Positions 29,892 through 46,346 of a DNA stretch of 64,000 nucleotides are shown here, piece by piece. Each line of letters starts with the position of its first letter. Position 1 is the stretch's first letter. Origin of the DNA: Bacilli bacterium (GTDB taxonomy: Bacteria; Bacillota_I; Bacilli_A; RF39; UBA660). The notes below the pieces were generated by a model that was not told where the DNA came from, ran no database searches, and worked only from the letters and a program-made list of their open reading frames with translations. Location of the stretch: the NCBI GenBank assembly GCA_017434825.1, contig JAFSGC010000004.1, positions 1 through 64,000 on the forward strand, read 5' to 3'. A program made the translations under genes and the position numbers.

Positions 29892-30505
29892 TAAAAACCA
29901 ATCCCCATAATATTTAACACATATATGCCAATACAAGCTACTATTATAATACAAATTAAGTTATTAAACCAGTCACTTTTTAAGAAATTTGGTAAATGAC
30001 GCCCAACAGCTCTAAATCCTACATATATTAAAAAGCCAATAATACACCCAACAGTGTTTAAAATAATATCATCAATATCAAAGCTACGCCCAATATTAAG
30101 TTGAACAAATTCAATAGTACCGCTTACAACTAACGCTACCACTAAGTTAGTCCATATTTTTTTAGGTTTAACATAAGTTCCAATAATATATCCAAACGGA
30201 ACAAATAAAGCTATATTTCCTATAACATTGAAAATAAATAATTCACTATCAAATTTATAACGTAATATCTCTTGAAATGGCACGATGTTAATTCCACTTG
30301 ATGCATTAATATCTACTCGAGTTACCATTTGATACAAAAGAAGCATGTACAAAATAGAAACTAATGTCCAAAATTCCTCATGAAAGCAAAAAGTATCACG
30401 ATGATTCTTTAAATAAGCCACTCTTAGTGCTGTTAAAGTAACCGCTATAATCACTAATGAAGGCCACATATTAATCAAACTACTTTTAAAAAGATTATAA
30501 ACCAT
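29891..30505 (-). CDS. VanZ-family membrane protein
   Basis: The 204-residue protein has about five membrane helices and the VanZ core NVIGNIALFVPFGYIIG followed by SGTIEFVQLNIGRSFDIDDIILNTVGCIIG. VanZ proteins confer low-level teicoplanin resistance in enterococci, but the broad family has no settled biochemical role. In Bacillus this place between yqfD and ybeY holds phoH and yqfF (pgpH), both missing here. It overlaps yqfD by 11 bases. Confidence 0.85.
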   Translation of the reverse strand: MVYNLFKSSLINMWPSLVIIAVTLTALRVAYLKNHRDTFCFHEEFWTLVSILYMLLLYQMVTRVDINASSGINIVPFQEILRYKFDSELFIFNVIGNIALFVPFGYIIGTYVKPKKIWTNLVVALVVSGTIEFVQLNIGRSFDIDDIILNTVGCIIGFLIYVGFRAVGRHLPNFLKSDWFNNLICIIIVACIGIYVLNIMGIGF

Positions 30506-31643
30506 TTTCTACTTCCTTTCTTGCTTCAACTTGAGAAGATATTTCTTCTTCTGCTACTATAAATATATCTATATCCATTGTACTATCAATTATTGTTTTT
30601 TGCAAAATTTTTTGACTAATAATCTTATCGGTATCTTTTAGTTTTAATGCCACTTTTTCCTTAGCTAATTCTACAGCTTTTTCAATTGCTTCATCTTCCG
30701 TATAAGTGTATTTAGTCTTTTTTATTTCTTCTTCTGTCTTTAAATAAATTTTTACTCCTAGCAAATCAAAAATTAACTTTCTTTTTTCTTCATATTCTTT
30801 TATCCGATCTTTAAATATTTGATGATCGATACCATCATAATTAAAAATTAAATTATTACGACTTTTACCGGTTTTTTGGCTAGCATAATACTCAAAAGGA
30901 ACTTTAATATTAACCTCATACCACACTTCAGCATAAACTTCACCACTAGCACAAACATTTTCTACAACTTCTTCATTTAATTTTATGTCACCACTTATCA
31001 GCAAGTCTCCTTTTTTAACATAGTCATTCATCCCCACTACAGCCTCTCCATCAAAAGTTTTTATTCTTGTTACTAATGCATCTTTTGAAGCATATAGGTG
31101 ACAATAATCTTTTTTATCATCAGTCGAAGTGATAATTCGCTCTTCCACTCTGACAACATATTTCATACCAATCTTATTTATTTCTAACCAATCAATCTTA
31201 TCTAAATGTTTATTTTTGATCTTTGATTTTATTTCTTGTAATTGATTATAGCTTTTTTGAAACCTAAACTTTTTTACTCCATATATTTCCAATTCTTCTG
31301 TAATTAAATTTACTAAAGCATCATCTTCATGCACAACATCGATATCCACAATAATATGCGATGACAAAAAAACTAATATTATACTTGAAAATAAAGCACA
31401 CAAAAGCAAACGATATCTTTTTATAGTCTTTCTTAAATATTCTGGACCTGTATACTTTACTTTTTGGAATTTCAAAGTTTTTAGATATTTAGTTATTTTT
31501 TCATAATCCTCATTAACTATTTTAATATAAATGGCATCATTTTTTTCGTACATTTCATAAACACTGACATTAATACTTCTTAACTTTTGGGCAATTTTCT
31601 GCCATGAGTAACCAGTTATCTTAATATACAAAAAGCTATTCAT
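30495..31643 (-). CDS. yqfD: Sporulation protein YqfD
   Basis: YqfD is a mother-cell membrane protein conserved in spore formers, expressed under sigma-E in Bacillus. The 382-residue protein has an N-terminal cytoplasmic region (YIKITGYSWQKIAQKLRSIN), one membrane helix at about 92-112 and a large extracytoplasmic domain with WLEINKIGMKYVVRVEERI, typical of the family. It overlaps yqfC by eight bases. Its exact role is not known. Confidence 0.88.
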   Translation of the reverse strand: MNSFLYIKITGYSWQKIAQKLRSINVSVYEMYEKNDAIYIKIVNEDYEKITKYLKTLKFQKVKYTGPEYLRKTIKRYRLLLCALFSSIILVFLSSHIIVDIDVVHEDDALVNLITEELEIYGVKKFRFQKSYNQLQEIKSKIKNKHLDKIDWLEINKIGMKYVVRVEERIITSTDDKKDYCHLYASKDALVTRIKTFDGEAVVGMNDYVKKGDLLISGDIKLNEEVVENVCASGEVYAEVWYEVNIKVPFEYYASQKTGKSRNNLIFNYDGIDHQIFKDRIKEYEEKRKLIFDLLGVKIYLKTEEEIKKTKYTYTEDEAIEKAVELAKEKVALKLKDTDKIISQKILQKTIIDSTMDIDIFIVAEEEISSQVEARKEVENGL

Positions 31644-35541: not shown

Positions 35542-36033
35542 ATGATTAACAAACAAAATCTATGGTTTATAACATTATTTTCTTTAATTTTAATATTAGG
35601 TATATATTATGTTTCAATGCCTAAAGATGCTTTAACTGTCTTTTCAGGAAATATGAGCGATTCATCAACGACAATTGAGGTAAATGAATCTGATGTTATA
35701 GTCGCTATGAAAGTTGAAGAAGAAGAAAAAATTTTAGCTCAAATGGCCGAGGCACAAAAGATTTTATTAGACGAAACAACTACTGCCAGTGAAAAAAATG
35801 AAGCTTATGAAACTTTACAATTATTAAATTCTAAAAAAGGAAAAGTCTTAGAAATTGAGACAATGATAAAGGAAAAATATAATGTTGATTCGTGCGTAAA
35901 AATCGAAGACAATAAGATAAATGTAACTCTATCTACGGAGGACCAAGGTAATGAATACGCTAATAACATTATCAATAGTATTCAAGAATTATATGATACA
36001 CAAATGTACATAACGATTAAATTTCAAAAATAA
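35542..36033 (+). CDS. spoIIIAH: Stage III sporulation protein AH-like
   Basis: SpoIIIAH is the mother-cell membrane protein that binds SpoIIQ across the intermembrane space and forms part of the feeding-tube/secretion-like channel. The 163-residue protein starts MINKQNLWFITLFSLIL, a typical SpoIIIAH helix, followed by YVSMPKDAL, an acidic helical linker (VEEEEKILAQMAEAQKILLD, TTASEKNEAYETLQLL) and a ring-building motif-like C-terminal domain. Other spoIIIA genes are not adjacent, so it is an orphan copy. GGAGG precedes the start. Confidence 0.82.
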   Translation: MINKQNLWFITLFSLILILGIYYVSMPKDALTVFSGNMSDSSTTIEVNESDVIVAMKVEEEEKILAQMAEAQKILLDETTTASEKNEAYETLQLLNSKKGKVLEIETMIKEKYNVDSCVKIEDNKINVTLSTEDQGNEYANNIINSIQELYDTQMYITIKFQK

Positions 36034-37456: not shown

Positions 37457-38860
37457 TTAATTATTAACCACACCATCTAAACTAAAACTTTTAGCATCTG
37501 TTATTTTAACATCTATGATTTTTCCAATTAGACTTTCATCGCCTTCGATGTTAACAAGCTTCATTGTATCAGTATATCCATATACTTTATTCTCATCTTT
37601 TATTGAAGGACCAATTACTAAAACTGGTACAACTTTATCTAAAAGTTTTACATTGCTTTCTTTAGAATATTTATTTACTAATTCATTAAGTCTTTTTAAA
37701 CGAGATTCTTTTTCTTCATTTGAGACATCATCTTTCATAAATGATGATGCAGTTCCTTTTCTTTCTGAATAAATAAATGTAAATGCTCCATCATACTTGC
37801 AATATTCAACCATATCTAATGTATCTTGGAAATCTTCTTCAGTTTCTCCAGGAAATCCTACAATAATATCAGTTGTAATTACTGCATTTGGAATTGTCTT
37901 TTTCATTTTATCGAATAGTTCTTGATATTCTTCTTTAGTGTAGCGACGATTCATTTTCTTTAATATACGACTACTTCCAGATTGTAATGGTAAATGAATA
38001 TAAGGCATAATATTTTCATATTTAGCTATTACTTCAATCATTTTATCTGTAAAATTCCAAGGGTGAGATGTAACAAAACGAAGTCTTGGAATTCCTAACT
38101 CTGCTACCTTTTCTAATAAATCTGCAAAGTCATAACCTAAATTCAAATCAGTTCCATAAGCATTAACATTTTGACCAAGTAACGTAATTTCTTGATAACC
38201 ACTTGCTACTAAAGATTTACATTCCTCTAAAATACATTCCATTTTACGACTACGTTCTCTACCTCTAGTGAATGGAACAATACAATATGTACAGAATTTA
38301 TCACAACCATACATGATATTTACCCAAGCACTAATCTTTGAATCTCTTTCATAAGTAATATTTTCAGGTACTATATCACTATTTGAATATACTTCAATAT
38401 TTTGTTTAGAACCTTTTTCAATTAATAATCTTGGTAAATCATAAATATTATTTGTCCCAATAATTAAATCAATATACTTATGATTCTTTTGAAGGTCTTC
38501 AACTACATCAACTTGACCTGCCATACATCCCATAACAACAATAATTAAGTCTTTCTTTTCTTTCTTTAGATGTTTACATCTACCAAGATAACCAATTACT
38601 TTATCATGAGCATTTTCTCTTATGGCGCAAGTATTTAATACTACAACATCGGCATCCTCTAAAGTATCTGTTGAATTCATACCCAACTTTTCTAAATAAA
38701 AACGAATTTGTTCACTATCATGAACATTCATTTGGCAACCATAAGTTCTTAAAAAATATTTTTTATTAGTATATATAGCATCAATATCGTTATTAACATT
38801 TAAGTAAGTAATATCTACTTTGTTACGATCTTTTGCTTCATTATAATTTGGTAATCTCAT
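37457..38860 (-). CDS. miaB: tRNA-2-methylthio-N6-dimethylallyladenosine synthase MiaB
   Basis: MiaB adds the methylthio group to i6A37 of tRNA, acting after MiaA. The 467-residue radical-SAM methylthiotransferase has the N-terminal UPF0004 domain with three cluster cysteines (TYGCQMN, NTCAIRE, GCMAG), the radical-SAM motif CDKFCTYCIVP, GEREFMS-type loops (TRGRERSR) and a C-terminal TRAM domain (from about 400). It is a single-gene unit. Confidence 0.96.
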   Translation of the reverse strand: MRLPNYNEAKDRNKVDITYLNVNNDIDAIYTNKKYFLRTYGCQMNVHDSEQIRFYLEKLGMNSTDTLEDADVVVLNTCAIRENAHDKVIGYLGRCKHLKKEKKDLIIVVMGCMAGQVDVVEDLQKNHKYIDLIIGTNNIYDLPRLLIEKGSKQNIEVYSNSDIVPENITYERDSKISAWVNIMYGCDKFCTYCIVPFTRGRERSRKMECILEECKSLVASGYQEITLLGQNVNAYGTDLNLGYDFADLLEKVAELGIPRLRFVTSHPWNFTDKMIEVIAKYENIMPYIHLPLQSGSSRILKKMNRRYTKEEYQELFDKMKKTIPNAVITTDIIVGFPGETEEDFQDTLDMVEYCKYDGAFTFIYSERKGTASSFMKDDVSNEEKESRLKRLNELVNKYSKESNVKLLDKVVPVLVIGPSIKDENKVYGYTDTMKLVNIEGDESLIGKIIDVKITDAKSFSLDGVVNN

Positions 38861-39033: not shown

Positions 39034-39062
39034 CAATAAAAAAAAGCCTTATCAAGGCTTTC
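39034..39062 (-). terminator. Terminator of serS
   Basis: AAAGCCTT/AAGGCTTT hairpin followed by eight or more T residues on the minus strand. The rest of the 219-base gap 38861-39079 holds only the miaB start region and no convincing gene. Confidence 0.85.
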
Positions 39063-41201: not shown

Positions 41202-41249
41202 TTGAATTTATTTGAAAATAAGTTATAATTATATCAGAACAAATGTTTG
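41202..41249 (+). promoter_or_regulatory. dinB promoter with LexA (SOS) box
   Basis: TTGAAT (41202-41207), 16 bases, TATAAT (41224-41229), and directly downstream AGAACAAATGTTTG (41236-41249), which fits the Gram-positive LexA site CGAAC-RNRY-GTTYG with one mismatch in the outer base. The box lies between -10 and the ribosome site, so LexA would block initiation. Confidence 0.75.
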
Positions 41250-41260
41250 GAGGAGCAAAA

Positions 41261-42526
41261 ATGAACAAAGACTTATATATCGAAAGAAATATCTTATGTA
41301 TTGATTTAAAAAGTTTTTTTGCTGCTTGCGAATGTATTGAAAGAGGATTGGATCCATTCAAATATCCTTTAGTGGTTGCTAATCCGAATCAAGGAAATGG
41401 TGCTATAACTTTAGCGGTTACTCCCTATCTTAAATTTATGGGAGTTAAATCAAGAGGAAGGCTTTATGAAATTCCTTCGAGTGTTAAATATCACATTGTT
41501 CCTCCAAGAATGAGCTTATATATCCAAAAAAGTAAAGAGATAGTCGATATATATTTAGATTACGTTTCTGAAGAAGATCTTCATGTCTACTCTATTGATG
41601 AATGTTTTTTAGATGTAACTCATTATTTAAAACTATATCAAAAAACTGACGAGGAATTAGCAATTGAAATCTTAAATACTATAAGAAGAAAAACTGGGCT
41701 TACTGCAACATGCGGAATCGGCCCCAATATGCTGCTTGCTAAAGTTGCTATGGATGTTGAAGCTAAACATAATAAAAATTGTATTGCCAAATGGACTTAT
41801 GAAGATGTTCCTACAAAACTATGGTCAATTAGTCCTTTGAGTGATATGTGGGGAATTGGCAAAAGAATGGAAAAAAATTTAAATACCATGAATATATATA
41901 CTGTTGGTGATTTGGCTCAAACTAACCGAGGCATTTTAAAAGATAAATTTGGGGTTATGGGCGTTGAACTTTGGAATCACGCTAACGGAGTTGATCTTTC
42001 AGTAATAAGTGATTATAAAGAAGCGCCAAAAGATAAATCATATTCTCACTCACAAGTTTTATTTAAAGATTATAACGAAGACAATATTCGAATTATCATT
42101 AGTGAAATGGTTGAACTTTTAACTGCTAGACTTCGAAAAAGCAATAAACAATGTACAGGTATTGGTTTTGGAATCGGCTACTCAAAAAATGTTGGTGGCG
42201 GGTTTTATCATACAATTAAATTGGATGCACCTACCGATGCAAACAAAGAAATCATTAAATGTTGTAATATTATTTTTGACCGTTATTATGAGTTCTTGCC
42301 TATTCGAAAGGTTTCTATTTGTTGTGCAGGAATATGTGCCAAAGTTGGAAGACAGCTAAATTTATTTGATACTTATGAAGAAATGAAAGAAGAAGAAAAT
42401 ATCAATGAAGCTATTGATACTATAAAAGCAAAATTTGGGAAAAACAGTCTTCTTAAAGCTTCAAGCCTTTTAGAGGATTCAACAGCAATTGAAAGAAATG
42501 GCAAAATCGGAGGACACAATGCATAA
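41261..42526 (+). CDS. Y-family DNA polymerase, UvrX/DinB-like
   Basis: The 421-residue translesion polymerase has the N-terminal ILCIDLKSFFAACECIERGLDP (first catalytic Asp), YSIDECFLDVT (second Asp-Glu pair), the thumb GIGPNMLLAKVAMD and the HhH region WGIGKRMEKNLNTM, then the little-finger domain. Together with the downstream yolD gene it belongs to the UvrX/YqjW subgroup rather than canonical dinB. GGAGGAGC precedes the ATG at 41261. A LexA box in the promoter predicts DNA-damage induction. Confidence 0.93.
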   Translation: MNKDLYIERNILCIDLKSFFAACECIERGLDPFKYPLVVANPNQGNGAITLAVTPYLKFMGVKSRGRLYEIPSSVKYHIVPPRMSLYIQKSKEIVDIYLDYVSEEDLHVYSIDECFLDVTHYLKLYQKTDEELAIEILNTIRRKTGLTATCGIGPNMLLAKVAMDVEAKHNKNCIAKWTYEDVPTKLWSISPLSDMWGIGKRMEKNLNTMNIYTVGDLAQTNRGILKDKFGVMGVELWNHANGVDLSVISDYKEAPKDKSYSHSQVLFKDYNEDNIRIIISEMVELLTARLRKSNKQCTGIGFGIGYSKNVGGGFYHTIKLDAPTDANKEIIKCCNIIFDRYYEFLPIRKVSICCAGICAKVGRQLNLFDTYEEMKEEENINEAIDTIKAKFGKNSLLKASSLLEDSTAIERNGKIGGHNA

Positions 42527-42833
42527 ACTTGACCGAGGAATGATTAAATGGCAACCATTTGATTCTGTTGTATCTGGAAAACAAGTTGTTAGAGATGTTT
42601 TAAAGAAAAAAAATGAAATAAAGATGCCTGCCCTTTCCGAGGAACAACGTAACAGCATTGAAGAAAAATTAATTTTATCATTTTATGAAAACGAAAAAAT
42701 AACACTAGATTATTACTATCAAGGTAAATTATTAAAACTATGTGATAACATAAAAAAAATAGATTCAACTTATCGTAAAATCTATTTTAGTAATAAAACT
42801 TTATTATTTGATCAAATTGTAAAGATCTATTAA
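42519..42833 (+). CDS. YolD-like protein
   Basis: A 104-residue member of the YolD family, small proteins commonly encoded directly after UvrX-type Y-family polymerases. Visible features are LDRGMIKWQPFDSVVSGK at the N-terminus and the beta-rich LDYYYQGKLLKLCDNIKKID. The ATG at 42519 follows GGAGG and overlaps the end of the polymerase gene by eight bases. Proposed to modulate the polymerase; direct evidence is limited. Confidence 0.85.
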   Translation: MHKLDRGMIKWQPFDSVVSGKQVVRDVLKKKNEIKMPALSEEQRNSIEEKLILSFYENEKITLDYYYQGKLLKLCDNIKKIDSTYRKIYFSNKTLLFDQIVKIY

Positions 42834-43405
42834 AGCATAAAGTAATTTTTAGCTAACCAGAATACCACTAAAGCAGTAATAATTAACAATACAATTGTAC
42901 CTATTAATTGAGATTTTTTGCTTGCTTGTTTTATTTCTGGTTCCTTAGTTTGTTGTACAGAATTTTCTGGTGCTACTACAGCTTGAGCTATAGCAGGTTG
43001 TTGTACTTGAGCTACTGGAGCCTCTGAAACCACAGGAGCATCCGGTTCACTAGCCACAGGTGCTGAAACAGGTTCTGCAGGCATCGGTGCAACTACAGGT
43101 TCTACTGGCGCAGCAATTGGTGCAGGTACAGGATCCGAAATCACTGGAGTTTCTACCACCGGTGCCGGAGCTGGTTGTACTGGTGCACTTGGCATAACTG
43201 GTGCTACTGGTTCAGTTACCACTGGAGCTACTGGAATTTCTGTTATCGGAGAACTCGCAGCTACTATAGGTTCTTCTACTTTCTCGCTTAAAATCGGCGT
43301 ATTTATTTCTTGATTTGTATTTTGAAAAGCTGGTGTAACAGGTTCTGCAGCTGCAGATTTCAACGTTGGTAATTCAATTGCTAATTCATTATTGTTTTCT
43401 TCCAT
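42830..43405 (-). CDS. Pro/Ala/Val-rich tail-anchored membrane protein
   Basis: The 191-residue protein starts with an acidic, conserved-looking segment (MEENNNELAIELPTLKSAA). It continues as a low-complexity region of imperfect PVAP/VAPVE-type repeats (about residues 35-145) and ends in a basic linker (KQASKKSQL) and one membrane helix (about 168-187). The positive charges before the helix place the repeat region inside the cell. Such extended Pro-rich cytoplasmic tails may act as a spacer or scaffold. No family recognised. It converges with yolD and overlaps it by four bases. Confidence 0.65.
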   Translation of the reverse strand: MEENNNELAIELPTLKSAAAEPVTPAFQNTNQEINTPILSEKVEEPIVAASSPITEIPVAPVVTEPVAPVMPSAPVQPAPAPVVETPVISDPVPAPIAAPVEPVVAPMPAEPVSAPVASEPDAPVVSEAPVAQVQQPAIAQAVVAPENSVQQTKEPEIKQASKKSQLIGTIVLLIITALVVFWLAKNYFML

Positions 43406-43485
43406 CATAATATCATACCTCTATTATAATTATGTCATAAAAACTAAAATATTCCTAGTCTAAATTTTTAATTTGGATAAATTTA

Positions 43486-43836
43486 TTAATCTCTTGGTTT
43501 AAAAAATAAAGCAACTATAAATGAAAATACTACTGCAGCAACAATGGCTAAAGAACTCTTACATAATAATTCGGTAAATATTCCTAAAACTCCCATTTCT
43601 TCATAACCAACCATCCCGCTTGAAAACAGCATATGACCAAAATTCATAATAAGAATACTTGCACCTGCCCCACACTCTTCTATAAGCCACGGATAAATGC
43701 CTAAGCAAGATAAAACTGCTCCGAGCACAGTGAAAAGCGAAGTAACATGACCTGCAGTTAATTTAGTATTATCAATTATTATTTGACCAATCATACAAAT
43801 AAAACCCGAAAATAAAAATGCATATATATAAATCAT
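43486..43836 (-). CDS. spoVAE: Stage V sporulation protein AE (SpoVAEb type)
   Basis: The 116-residue protein has four membrane helices and the SpoVAC/SpoVAEb signature: FIGMIGQ-like start, DNTKLTAGHVTSLFTVLGAVLSCLG, and GASILIMNFGHMLFSSGMVGYEEMG. With SpoVAC and SpoVAD it belongs to the dipicolinic-acid channel in the spore inner membrane. It overlaps spoVAD by four bases. SpoVAA, AB, AEa and AF are absent. Confidence 0.92.
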   Translation of the reverse strand: MIYIYAFLFSGFICMIGQIIIDNTKLTAGHVTSLFTVLGAVLSCLGIYPWLIEECGAGASILIMNFGHMLFSSGMVGYEEMGVLGIFTELLCKSSLAIVAAVVFSFIVALFFKPRD

Positions 43837-44810
43837 GAAAGCACCTCAATACTGACTGCATGAGATACAGATGGAATTGTTTGATGTTGATTTACTAAAA
43901 CTGGACTATGTAATGAACCAGTCCCTAAAAGCAATATTTTCTTATACTTTTTGGATTTCAATATTTTACAAAAGAAAACTAAAGGAAGACAGCATGGTCC
44001 ACTACCACCAGAGTACATCTCTTGACTATTAAGATAAATTTCACAGCCGGCATCCATAATATTGGTCAGTTTTTCTTTGTAAACGTTTTCATAATATTCT
44101 TTCAAAATATCAAGTCCAACACATCCTAAATCTCCAGTTAAAATTAAATCATAATCTTTTGCCTTCATATTCATGTTAGTTAAATGTTCATTTAAGGTAT
44201 CTGCACAAGCCGGAGCCATTACTGCTCCCATATGATTAACATCATTTATTCCTAAATCAATGACTTTTCCGATAGTTCCTGCAACTATTTTTAAAGATTG
44301 TTTTTCTGTAGTTAAGATAGCACCCACTGCAGATGTTGCTGTAGTAGTGGCAGTACTGGGTTTTGTATTACCATATTCCGTTGGATATCTAAATTGTCTT
44401 TCAGCAGTTAAATTATGTGATGATGTCACACAAATAATATTTTGAGCATTTTTGCTTTCAATTAAATTTCCTGCTAAAAGAAGTTCTTCTACAAATGTTG
44501 CACACGCAGAATAAACTCCAATGTATGGAATCCTAAATTCTTTAGCACTATACGAAGAGATAGAAATTTGATTAATTAAATCTCCTCCAATTAGGTAATC
44601 AAAATTACGATCACACATATTATTGTTATTAATTAGATTTTCAATAACAACTCTTTGCATCTTAATTTCTGCCATTTCGAAAGTTTTACTTTTATAGTAA
44701 TAGTCACTAATACTCATATCAAAATTAGTTAACTTGCTTTCTCTTTCCTTAGGACCAACTAAAGTAAAATAATCTTTAATATATACATTGTTAAATTTTA
44801 AACTAGCCAT
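43833..44810 (-). CDS. spoVAD: Stage V sporulation protein AD
   Basis: SpoVAD has a thiolase-like fold and binds dipicolinic acid during its uptake into the forespore. The 325-residue protein shows GGDLINQISISSYSAKEF, GVYSACATFVEELLLAG (the thiolase-type Cys), VTSSHNLTAERQFRYPTEYG and MYSGGSGPCCLPLV. It overlaps spoVAC by eight bases and spoVAE by four. Confidence 0.95.
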   Translation of the reverse strand: MASLKFNNVYIKDYFTLVGPKERESKLTNFDMSISDYYYKSKTFEMAEIKMQRVVIENLINNNNMCDRNFDYLIGGDLINQISISSYSAKEFRIPYIGVYSACATFVEELLLAGNLIESKNAQNIICVTSSHNLTAERQFRYPTEYGNTKPSTATTTATSAVGAILTTEKQSLKIVAGTIGKVIDLGINDVNHMGAVMAPACADTLNEHLTNMNMKAKDYDLILTGDLGCVGLDILKEYYENVYKEKLTNIMDAGCEIYLNSQEMYSGGSGPCCLPLVFFCKILKSKKYKKILLLGTGSLHSPVLVNQHQTIPSVSHAVSIEVLS

Positions 44811-45240
44811 TGCACACCGCCATTAATAAACATAAAAAGAATGCTGATATTATTCCAAATAAAATTACTGAACCTGCGAGTTTAAAGAAATTAGACCCCA
44901 GTCCCGTAATTAATCCATCAGTTTTATACTCTAATGCTGCACTTGTAACACTATGAGCAAATCCCGTAGTAGGAACAATAAGACCACACTTTCCCTTTTT
45001 TACCCAATCATCAAAAAAGCCAAAACCAGTTAATATTGAAGCAGTTGCTATCATCGTTAAACAAACTACTGATAAACTCATTACTTTGGATAGCCCAAAA
45101 GACTTCATATAAATAAAACTTAAAAATTCTGATACTACCGCTAAAGAGCCTCCGACAACGAAGGCTATAAAGGCATTTAAGCATCTACTTTCTTTTGGTT
45201 TCTTTTTTGCAACTAATTGTTTATATTCCTCTTTATCCAT
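44803..45240 (-). CDS. spoVAC: Stage V sporulation protein AC
   Basis: SpoVAC is the membrane component of the SpoVA channel, mechanosensitive in Bacillus. The 145-residue protein has a basic N-terminus (KKKPKESRCLNAFIAFVVGG), four helices and the TGFGFFDDWVKKGKCGLIVPTTGFAHSV signature. I start at the ATG at 45240 behind GGTGA. It follows the sigma-factor gene by 43 bases, as in the classical spoIIA-spoVA neighbourhood. Confidence 0.93.
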   Translation of the reverse strand: MDKEEYKQLVAKKKPKESRCLNAFIAFVVGGSLAVVSEFLSFIYMKSFGLSKVMSLSVVCLTMIATASILTGFGFFDDWVKKGKCGLIVPTTGFAHSVTSAALEYKTDGLITGLGSNFFKLAGSVILFGIISAFFLCLLMAVCNG

Positions 45241-45283
45241 ATATTTCACCAATATTATTATTGGTAAAGATTATCAAAATATA

Positions 45284-45922
45284 CTATAGAGACATAAATT
45301 GTTGCATCTTACTAAGTCCCTTTTTTTCATATCTTGAGACCATAACTTGAGTCATAGCTAACTTTTTAGCAACTTCACTTTGAGTCATATCTTCATAGTA
45401 TCTTGCTTTGATTATTTCTTTTTCATCTTTTGAAAGCATTTCTAATCCTTCGGATAATAAGATTTGATCATCAACTTTTACTTTTTCATCGACTTTGATA
45501 GTTTCATAAAATGGCATATCAGCTTCAGCATCTAGTGACATAATTTCTTTTCCTGCCATAATCGCTTCATTAATTTGTGTCTCTGGTATTTCTAAAAATG
45601 AAGCTATTTCACTATTACTAGGAACCCGGTTATATCTTTGTGCCAATGCAAATCTAGTTTTTTCAATCATTCTATATAATTTTAAAATATCTTTATTAAT
45701 TTTCATTGTTCGATTATTAACAAGCATGTACATTTCCCCATAAATATATTCATATGCATAGGTTGAAAACTTTGTAGTTCCATTATCTTTATAATTTTTA
45801 TAAGCTTTTAATAATCCTAAAACGCCCGCTTGAAATAAATCATCTGTTTCAACACCATAAAACTTACTAGCTATTTTATAAATTAAATTTGTGTTGCCCC
45901 TTATTATATCTTCGATTGTCAT
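45284..45922 (-). CDS. sigF: Sporulation sigma factor, SigF/SigG type
   Basis: A 212-residue sigma-70 factor without region 1. Region 2 is visible (DDLFQAGVLGLLKAYKNYKDNGTTKFSTYAYEYIYGEM), with a weaker region 2.4. Region 3 includes RVPSNSEIASFL and region 4 MTQSEVAKKLAMTQVMVSRYEKK, which is nearly the SigF/SigG helix-turn-helix. Position between a spoIIAA-like gene and spoVAC points to sigma-F, the first forespore-specific sigma factor. The anti-sigma kinase SpoIIAB, normally encoded between spoIIAA and sigF, is absent: only three bases separate the two genes. Confidence 0.85.
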   Translation of the reverse strand: MTIEDIIRGNTNLIYKIASKFYGVETDDLFQAGVLGLLKAYKNYKDNGTTKFSTYAYEYIYGEMYMLVNNRTMKINKDILKLYRMIEKTRFALAQRYNRVPSNSEIASFLEIPETQINEAIMAGKEIMSLDAEADMPFYETIKVDEKVKVDDQILLSEGLEMLSKDEKEIIKARYYEDMTQSEVAKKLAMTQVMVSRYEKKGLSKMQQFMSL

Positions 45923-45925
45923 ATA

Positions 45926-46258
45926 TTAAACCTCGATCACCTTAAACGCGGATAATTCTGTTTCTGTTTTTTTAATATGTAATTTGTGAATTTTTTTACT
46001 TAATGATTTATTTACTTCACACAAATATATTAATCCTTTATTAGTTTTAATAGCATACTTAGTATTTAAAATTGCATCAATTCCTTCTTCATCAATATCA
46101 TGTAAATTATATAAATTATAAACCAAGTATTTAATTTTATGTTTTAGTAAGACTGGTACTAAGTAATTATTTATTTTATACGTAGTAGTTCGATTTAATT
46201 TTCCATCTAGTCTTACAAACAGTATTCCTCGACTATATTCTAAATCCATCTTTAGCAT
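45926..46258 (-). CDS. spoIIAA: SpoIIAA-like STAS protein with Glu-Glu at the phosphorylation site
   Basis: The 110-residue STAS-domain protein aligns with SpoIIAA along its length (GILFVRLDGKLNRTT; YLVYNLYNLHDIDEEGIDAIL). Bacillus SpoIIAA has D-S-S-G with Ser58 as the residue phosphorylated by SpoIIAB; here residues 56-59 read D-E-E-G. It cannot be phosphorylated there and mimics the phosphorylated, inactive state. The gene precedes sigF directly. I start at the ATG at 46258 behind AAGGTGA. It may keep a structural role or bind a divergent partner elsewhere. Confidence 0.75.
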   Translation of the reverse strand: MLKMDLEYSRGILFVRLDGKLNRTTTYKINNYLVPVLLKHKIKYLVYNLYNLHDIDEEGIDAILNTKYAIKTNKGLIYLCEVNKSLSKKIHKLHIKKTETELSAFKVIEV

Positions 46259-46346
46259 ATAAATCACCTTTTCTCTACTTAAATATAGAACTTTTTTATT
46301 AAACTTTAAACAACTTCGACAAAACTAGCTAAAAGTTTTGCAAATA

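Follow-up and report, generated by a model that had tools for sequence, protein, structure and literature searches.

We found that in the window (the whole stretch of 64,000 nucleotides analysed here, from a genome of the order RF39) a SpoIIAA-like gene adjoins the gene of a sigma-F-like sigma factor, and that this locus belongs to an order-wide pattern: spoIIAB and spoIIE are gone throughout the order, and sigma-F, SpoIIR, YlbJ and a promoter with a Spo0A box are kept. In addition, the phosphoserine of SpoIIAA and the arginine at which SpoIIE docks have eroded. From these comparisons we propose, at a probability of about 0.72, that the spoIIA partner switch (SpoIIAA, SpoIIAB and SpoIIE) was dismantled in the ancestor of the order and that sigma-F is now set mainly by Spo0A-driven synthesis. 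The original prediction, made on the window only, was that partner-switching control of sigma-F had been lost or rewired in this lineage; the absence of SpoIIAB and SpoIIE and the loss of the phosphoserine in relatives support it, and its scope was drawn too narrowly, as the whole order is affected.

The locus comprises the following features, in positions of the window:

45926-46258, minus strand: SpoIIAA-like single-domain STAS gene, 110 aa, ATG start (Pfam STAS, 41.7 bits)
45284-45922, minus strand: sigma-F-like sigma factor gene, 212 aa (assigned by PDB match and tree; NCBIfam SigF below its cut-off)
44803-45252, minus strand: SpoVAC (TIGR02838, 132.6 bits)
43833-44810, minus strand: SpoVAD (PF07451, 349 bits)
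43486-43836, minus strand: SpoVAE, SpoVAEB-type (TIGR02839, 106.6 bits)
46082-46093, minus strand: codons of D56-E57-E58-G59, which match D-S58-S-G of B. subtilis SpoIIAA (sequence and alignments)
46088-46090, minus strand: codon of E57, in place of the phosphorylated serine

The STAS gene ends in TAA and is followed after 3 nt (TAT) by the start of the sigma factor frame, a gap that leaves no room for spoIIAB, and spoVAC-AD-AE lie downstream of sigF. This is the layout that had been described, and the D-E-E-G segment described at STAS residues 56-59 is likewise encoded at 46093-46082 of the minus strand. The STAS frame can be extended to a GTG at 46267 (45926-46267); the ATG at 46258, with the ribosome-binding site GGTGA ahead of it, is the better and likely start. 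Misassembly or chance as the origin of the arrangement is ruled out by 116 distinct STAS-sigma pairs lacking spoIIAB, which come from independent metagenome-assembled genomes. Further along the window, a Y-family DNA polymerase-like gene, recognized by eye, lies at 41243-42833 and overlaps the next, YolD-like gene, and the protein encoded at 42830-43408 is rich in Pro, Ala and Val, has a C-terminal membrane segment and matches no family.

Both products can be assigned to the sporulation families. When the STAS profile was compared with the PDB, SpoIIAA chains were the sole matches, and the protein consists of a single STAS domain closest to SpoIIAA. It scores 38.1 bits with the NCBIfam spoIIAA equivalog, below the cut-off of 114.75, carries Glu where the phosphorylatable Ser of D-S-S-G is expected, and has neither a cognate SpoIIAB nor SpoIIE in its genome. 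Among PDB chains the sigma factor best matches 1l0o_C (sigma-F in complex with SpoIIAB; 205 bits, compared with 146 bits for sigma-B, the next family). A tree that includes sigma-F, sigma-G and sigma-E of relatives places the sigma-F proteins from loci without spoIIAB in a single clade (support 100/99), apart from sigma-G and sigma-E. With NCBIfam SigF the window's protein scores 129.1 bits, below the equivalog cut-off of 321.45. The synteny with spoVAC-AD-AE, which had been put forward as support for orthology, agrees with membership in sigma-F; spoVAC lies immediately 3' of sigF in 72 of 109 loci. Furthermore, spoIIR, a sigma-F output gene, is present in the window's genome (G000:C2:76711-77064). 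The three components of the SpoIIA partner-switching module, namely the kinase/anti-sigma factor, the phosphatase and a phosphorylatable STAS protein, are all missing or altered.

The STAS protein itself has not been left to drift. In an alignment of the 116 distinct STAS proteins that adjoin sigma-F, Asp56 is kept in 108 and Gly59 in 110, and the fold residues G22, D59, G62 and G78 (GTG numbering) are retained; dN/dS is below 1 in 23 of 23 close pairs (most at 0.02-0.5, one at 0.92). Such conservation suggests that the protein still has a partner of some kind. One possibility is that the STAS protein regulates sigma-F directly, as an anti-sigma factor or stabiliser in place of SpoIIAB, with the acidic residue 57 in a new interface. 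Consistent with this, the gene is tightly linked to sigF, with a gap of -1 (start/stop overlap) in 27 of the 116 pairs; K31, N33, Y35, P38 and H43 (GTG numbering) are conserved in a clade-specific manner; the protein is under purifying selection; and STAS and sigma-F distances correlate beyond those of SpoVAC and SpoVAD, if modestly (partial r 0.39). However, the partial correlation between sigma-F and SpoVAC is also high (0.55), and STAS is absent from nine rows of the tree, a distribution that requires at least six losses with sigma-F retained, which argues against an essential modulator. Across the order a STAS match is found in 181 of 241 genomes. An AlphaFold2 model of STAS and sigma read through as one chain, in which Gly stands for the in-frame stop, gave pLDDT 90 and pTM 0.44, and thus no confident arrangement of the two; as the sigma factor alone gave 0.36, this speaks neither for nor against an interface. 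A fold search with this model returned only other sigma factors among its best matches. We regard direct regulation as a less likely alternative, and the STAS protein is best explained as a remnant or modulator within a dismantled switch, under selection yet dispensable.

The loss of SpoIIAB and SpoIIE was followed at several scales. Neither was found by profile search in the window's genome (1.07 Mb assembly, 93% complete) or in any of 241 genomes of the order, which span 92 genera and include 216 of good quality (SpoIIAB 0/241 at E 1e-15; SpoIIE 0/241 over the cut-off). In a first sample of 40 relatives, SpoIIAB was found in none of the 25 genomes of the window's family and in 5 genomes of other families, and SpoIIE (PF07228) followed the same pattern, with no positive member of the family. 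In a class sample of 306 genomes, 82 of which carry SpoIIR (PF09551), SpoIIAB was present in 42/47 SpoIIR-positive genomes outside the family versus 0/35 inside it (Fisher P-value 3.7e-18); the five outside that lack it comprise four that are 55-87% complete and one (G486) with 6% contamination. Profile searches may miss a kinase/anti-sigma factor that is non-homologous or has diverged strongly. The role of SpoIIAB might still be filled by such an ATPase, for instance one of histidine-kinase type. Histidine-kinase-type ATPase domains do occur in these genomes, and there are weak matches in frames of 153-218 aa in four of them (G024, G021, G022, G009). Yet no match in the family exceeds 45 bits (cut-off 135), the only one in the window's genome lies inside a 475-aa frame, and the phosphoserine is gone in 113 of the 116 STAS proteins, so that STAS does not require a kinase to act on it; a substitute of this kind is unlikely.

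The position of the phosphosite could be fixed from known structures. For SpoIIAA, S58 and R67 have been named, and R67, which serves SpoIIE docking, has been reported to lie near the SpoIIE contact residue E675 (PMC11418112). The SpoIIAA/SpoIIAB complex in PDB 1tid reads MDASG and the wild-type protein in 1th8 reads MDSSG; because of this S58A substitution and the spacing between S58 and R67 (the Arg of GRY), the phosphosite is the first Ser of D-S-S-G, and therefore E57, and not E58, replaces it. The same two observations rule out the second Ser, a choice by which "Ser kept in a third" would have been read from the alignment. Ser occupies the phosphosite in 5/5 relatives that bear SpoIIAB versus 3/116 STAS proteins of the order, which otherwise carry Glu (58), Asn (11), Ile, Met or Gln (8 each), Asp or Leu (5 each) or other residues (10), in a sample weighted to the window's relatives, so that the order-wide share of Glu may be lower. 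In addition, the equivalent of R67 is Thr, Asn or Ser in most of these proteins. Relatives bear out the expected Glu-Glu in part: the phosphoserine is lost and E57 is common, whereas E58 is not conserved.

It had also been suggested that Glu makes the protein phosphomimetic and hence inactive. This is literally true of the window's sequence and functionally moot, there being no SpoIIAB. A stronger version, in which selection favours Glu57 because it freezes SpoIIAA in the phosphorylated form that does not bind, draws on Glu being the commonest residue and clustered on the tree (14 changes compared with 40.7 in shuffles). However, no SpoIIAB is left to be affected, and Glu has been replaced many times. 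The sigma-F tree requires at least 13 changes between Glu and non-Glu; its deep lineages have a hydrophobic or amide residue here (Ile, Met, Leu, Asn or Gln), and the window's large group has mostly Glu. Glu may simply suit the N-terminus of the helix. We consider such a lock improbable. The variety of residues indicates instead that the site was freed from kinase control, in keeping with a dismantled switch: judged from the alignment, the serine position is out of constraint while the whole protein remains under selection.

Upstream of the STAS-sigF operon we identified a putative Spo0A-controlled promoter:

46315-46324, minus strand: putative Spo0A box TTTTGTCGAA, containing the 7-mer TGTCGAA
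46305-46313, minus strand: -35-like block TTGTTTAAA beside the Spo0A box; T-G-T-T-T-A-A-A-A at constant offset across operons
46282-46290, minus strand: -10-like block TTCTATATT; conserved CTATATT at constant offset

An exact TGTCGAA lies upstream of 106 of 115 STAS-sigF operons of the order, nearly always in the same orientation, and 105 of its 136 occurrences in STAS-sigF loci are at the promoter position, followed at fixed spacing by the -35-like and CTATATT blocks. Of the 13 loci of the order without STAS, a count that takes duplicate copies separately, 12 have a Spo0A box immediately ahead of sigF, no more than 120 nt away; loci that have lost STAS and carry the box directly before sigF include L015-L017, L020, L078, L081, L087, L105 and L128. 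Binding of Spo0A at this promoter is inferred from the motif. The window has only one further TGTCGAA, at 39060 on the minus strand. It lies just 3' of serS, and the gene at 37457-38860 begins about 200 nt downstream of it; it may be a Spo0A site or a chance occurrence.

Other sporulation genes are widely retained. A sigma-F/G match is present in 226/241 genomes of the order, YlbJ (TIGR02871, used as a general sporulation marker) in 217/241, and SpoIIR in 23/25 genomes of the family in the first sample, the window's included. In-frame stops interrupt many of the order-wide YlbJ matches, probably because the C-terminus is shorter and the frame was read beyond its end. The window also encodes YqfD (30495-31643) and a SpoIIIAH-like protein (35542-36033); no other spoIIIA genes were seen among the neighbours of these two that were scanned. 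Two genomes, G001 of the same genus (88% complete) and G014 of the same family, have a housekeeping-type sigma match only and no SpoIIR, and are probable cases of recent sporulation loss within genus and family. The idea that sporulation is being lost and that sigma-F control is merely degenerate, for which genomes of about 1 Mb, the 15/241 genomes without a sigma-F/G match and the absence of sigma-F and SpoIIR in G001 could be cited, is very doubtful given a sigma-F dN/dS of 0-0.13 in close pairs, the retention of sigma-F/G, YlbJ and SpoIIR, and the conserved Spo0A-box promoter.

In the mechanism that we propose, phosphorylated Spo0A would directly drive transcription of the STAS-sigF or sigF-only operon, and sigma-F would be active once made. 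Synthesis, perhaps together with another factor, would then determine when and where it acts, with no kinase/anti-sigma factor to release it; sigma-F would turn on SpoIIR and so trigger the usual sigma-E pathway. The STAS protein, presumably no longer phosphorylatable at the usual site, would be a dispensable accessory that purifying selection maintains in most lineages and that may modulate sigma-F directly. Elsewhere, keeping sigma-F inactive until septation is thought to be essential, and purely transcriptional control would therefore be surprising. Since sigma-F is kept and the kinase and phosphatase are lost, the order must control the forespore cell-fate decision in another way. The broader proposal, that this is an order of endospore formers without anti-sigma-F factor, kinase or phosphatase in which a Spo0A-driven, always-active sigma-F replaces a partner switch regarded as universal among spore formers, we hold to be an even bet from the genomic pattern; such a sigma-F would perhaps be tuned by a STAS protein that cannot be phosphorylated, or by the position of the gene and the timing of the septum.

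Part of this picture is already known. A single sentence in a 2024 study in Microb Genom reports that spoIIAB and spoIIE are reduced or absent in RF39, and the same study lists spoIIGA, spoIIM, spoIIP and spoIIQ for RF39 and predicts spore formation (PMC10868615). The small genomes, gut origin and spoIIAB/spoIIE pattern seen here fit RF39/UBA660 as portrayed there and in PMC13155120. The 2024 study does not describe the STAS-sigF pair, the lost phosphosite, the promoter with its Spo0A box or the recurrent loss of spoIIAA, and we found no description of these four features in the open-access literature. Galperin et al. 2012 (PMC3533761) listed spoIIAA, spoIIAB, sigF and spoIIE in all spore-forming bacilli and clostridia, and SpoMAG (PMC12536801) finds spoIIAB in all predicted spore formers and gives RF39 a sporulation probability of 0%. 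Classifiers of this kind may misjudge the abundant gut bacteria of the order. With sigma-F, SpoIIR and a Spo0A-box promoter but no switch, the order offers a natural experiment that asks if compartment-specific gene expression requires partner switching.

Compared with the spoIIA operon (spoIIAA-spoIIAB-sigF) of B. subtilis and other spore formers, the locus shares a SpoIIAA-family STAS gene, sigma-F, the downstream spoVAC-AD-AE and, as predicted here from the motif, control by Spo0A. It differs in that there is no spoIIAB and no spoIIE in the genome, the phosphoserine is replaced, the SpoIIE-docking Arg is lost and STAS is sometimes missing. The RsbV/RsbW/RsbU-sigma-B switch likewise places a STAS anti-anti-sigma factor beside a sigma factor of the sigma-B/F/G type, whereas here the kinase/anti-sigma factor and the phosphatase are absent and the sigma factor is closer to sigma-F than to sigma-B.
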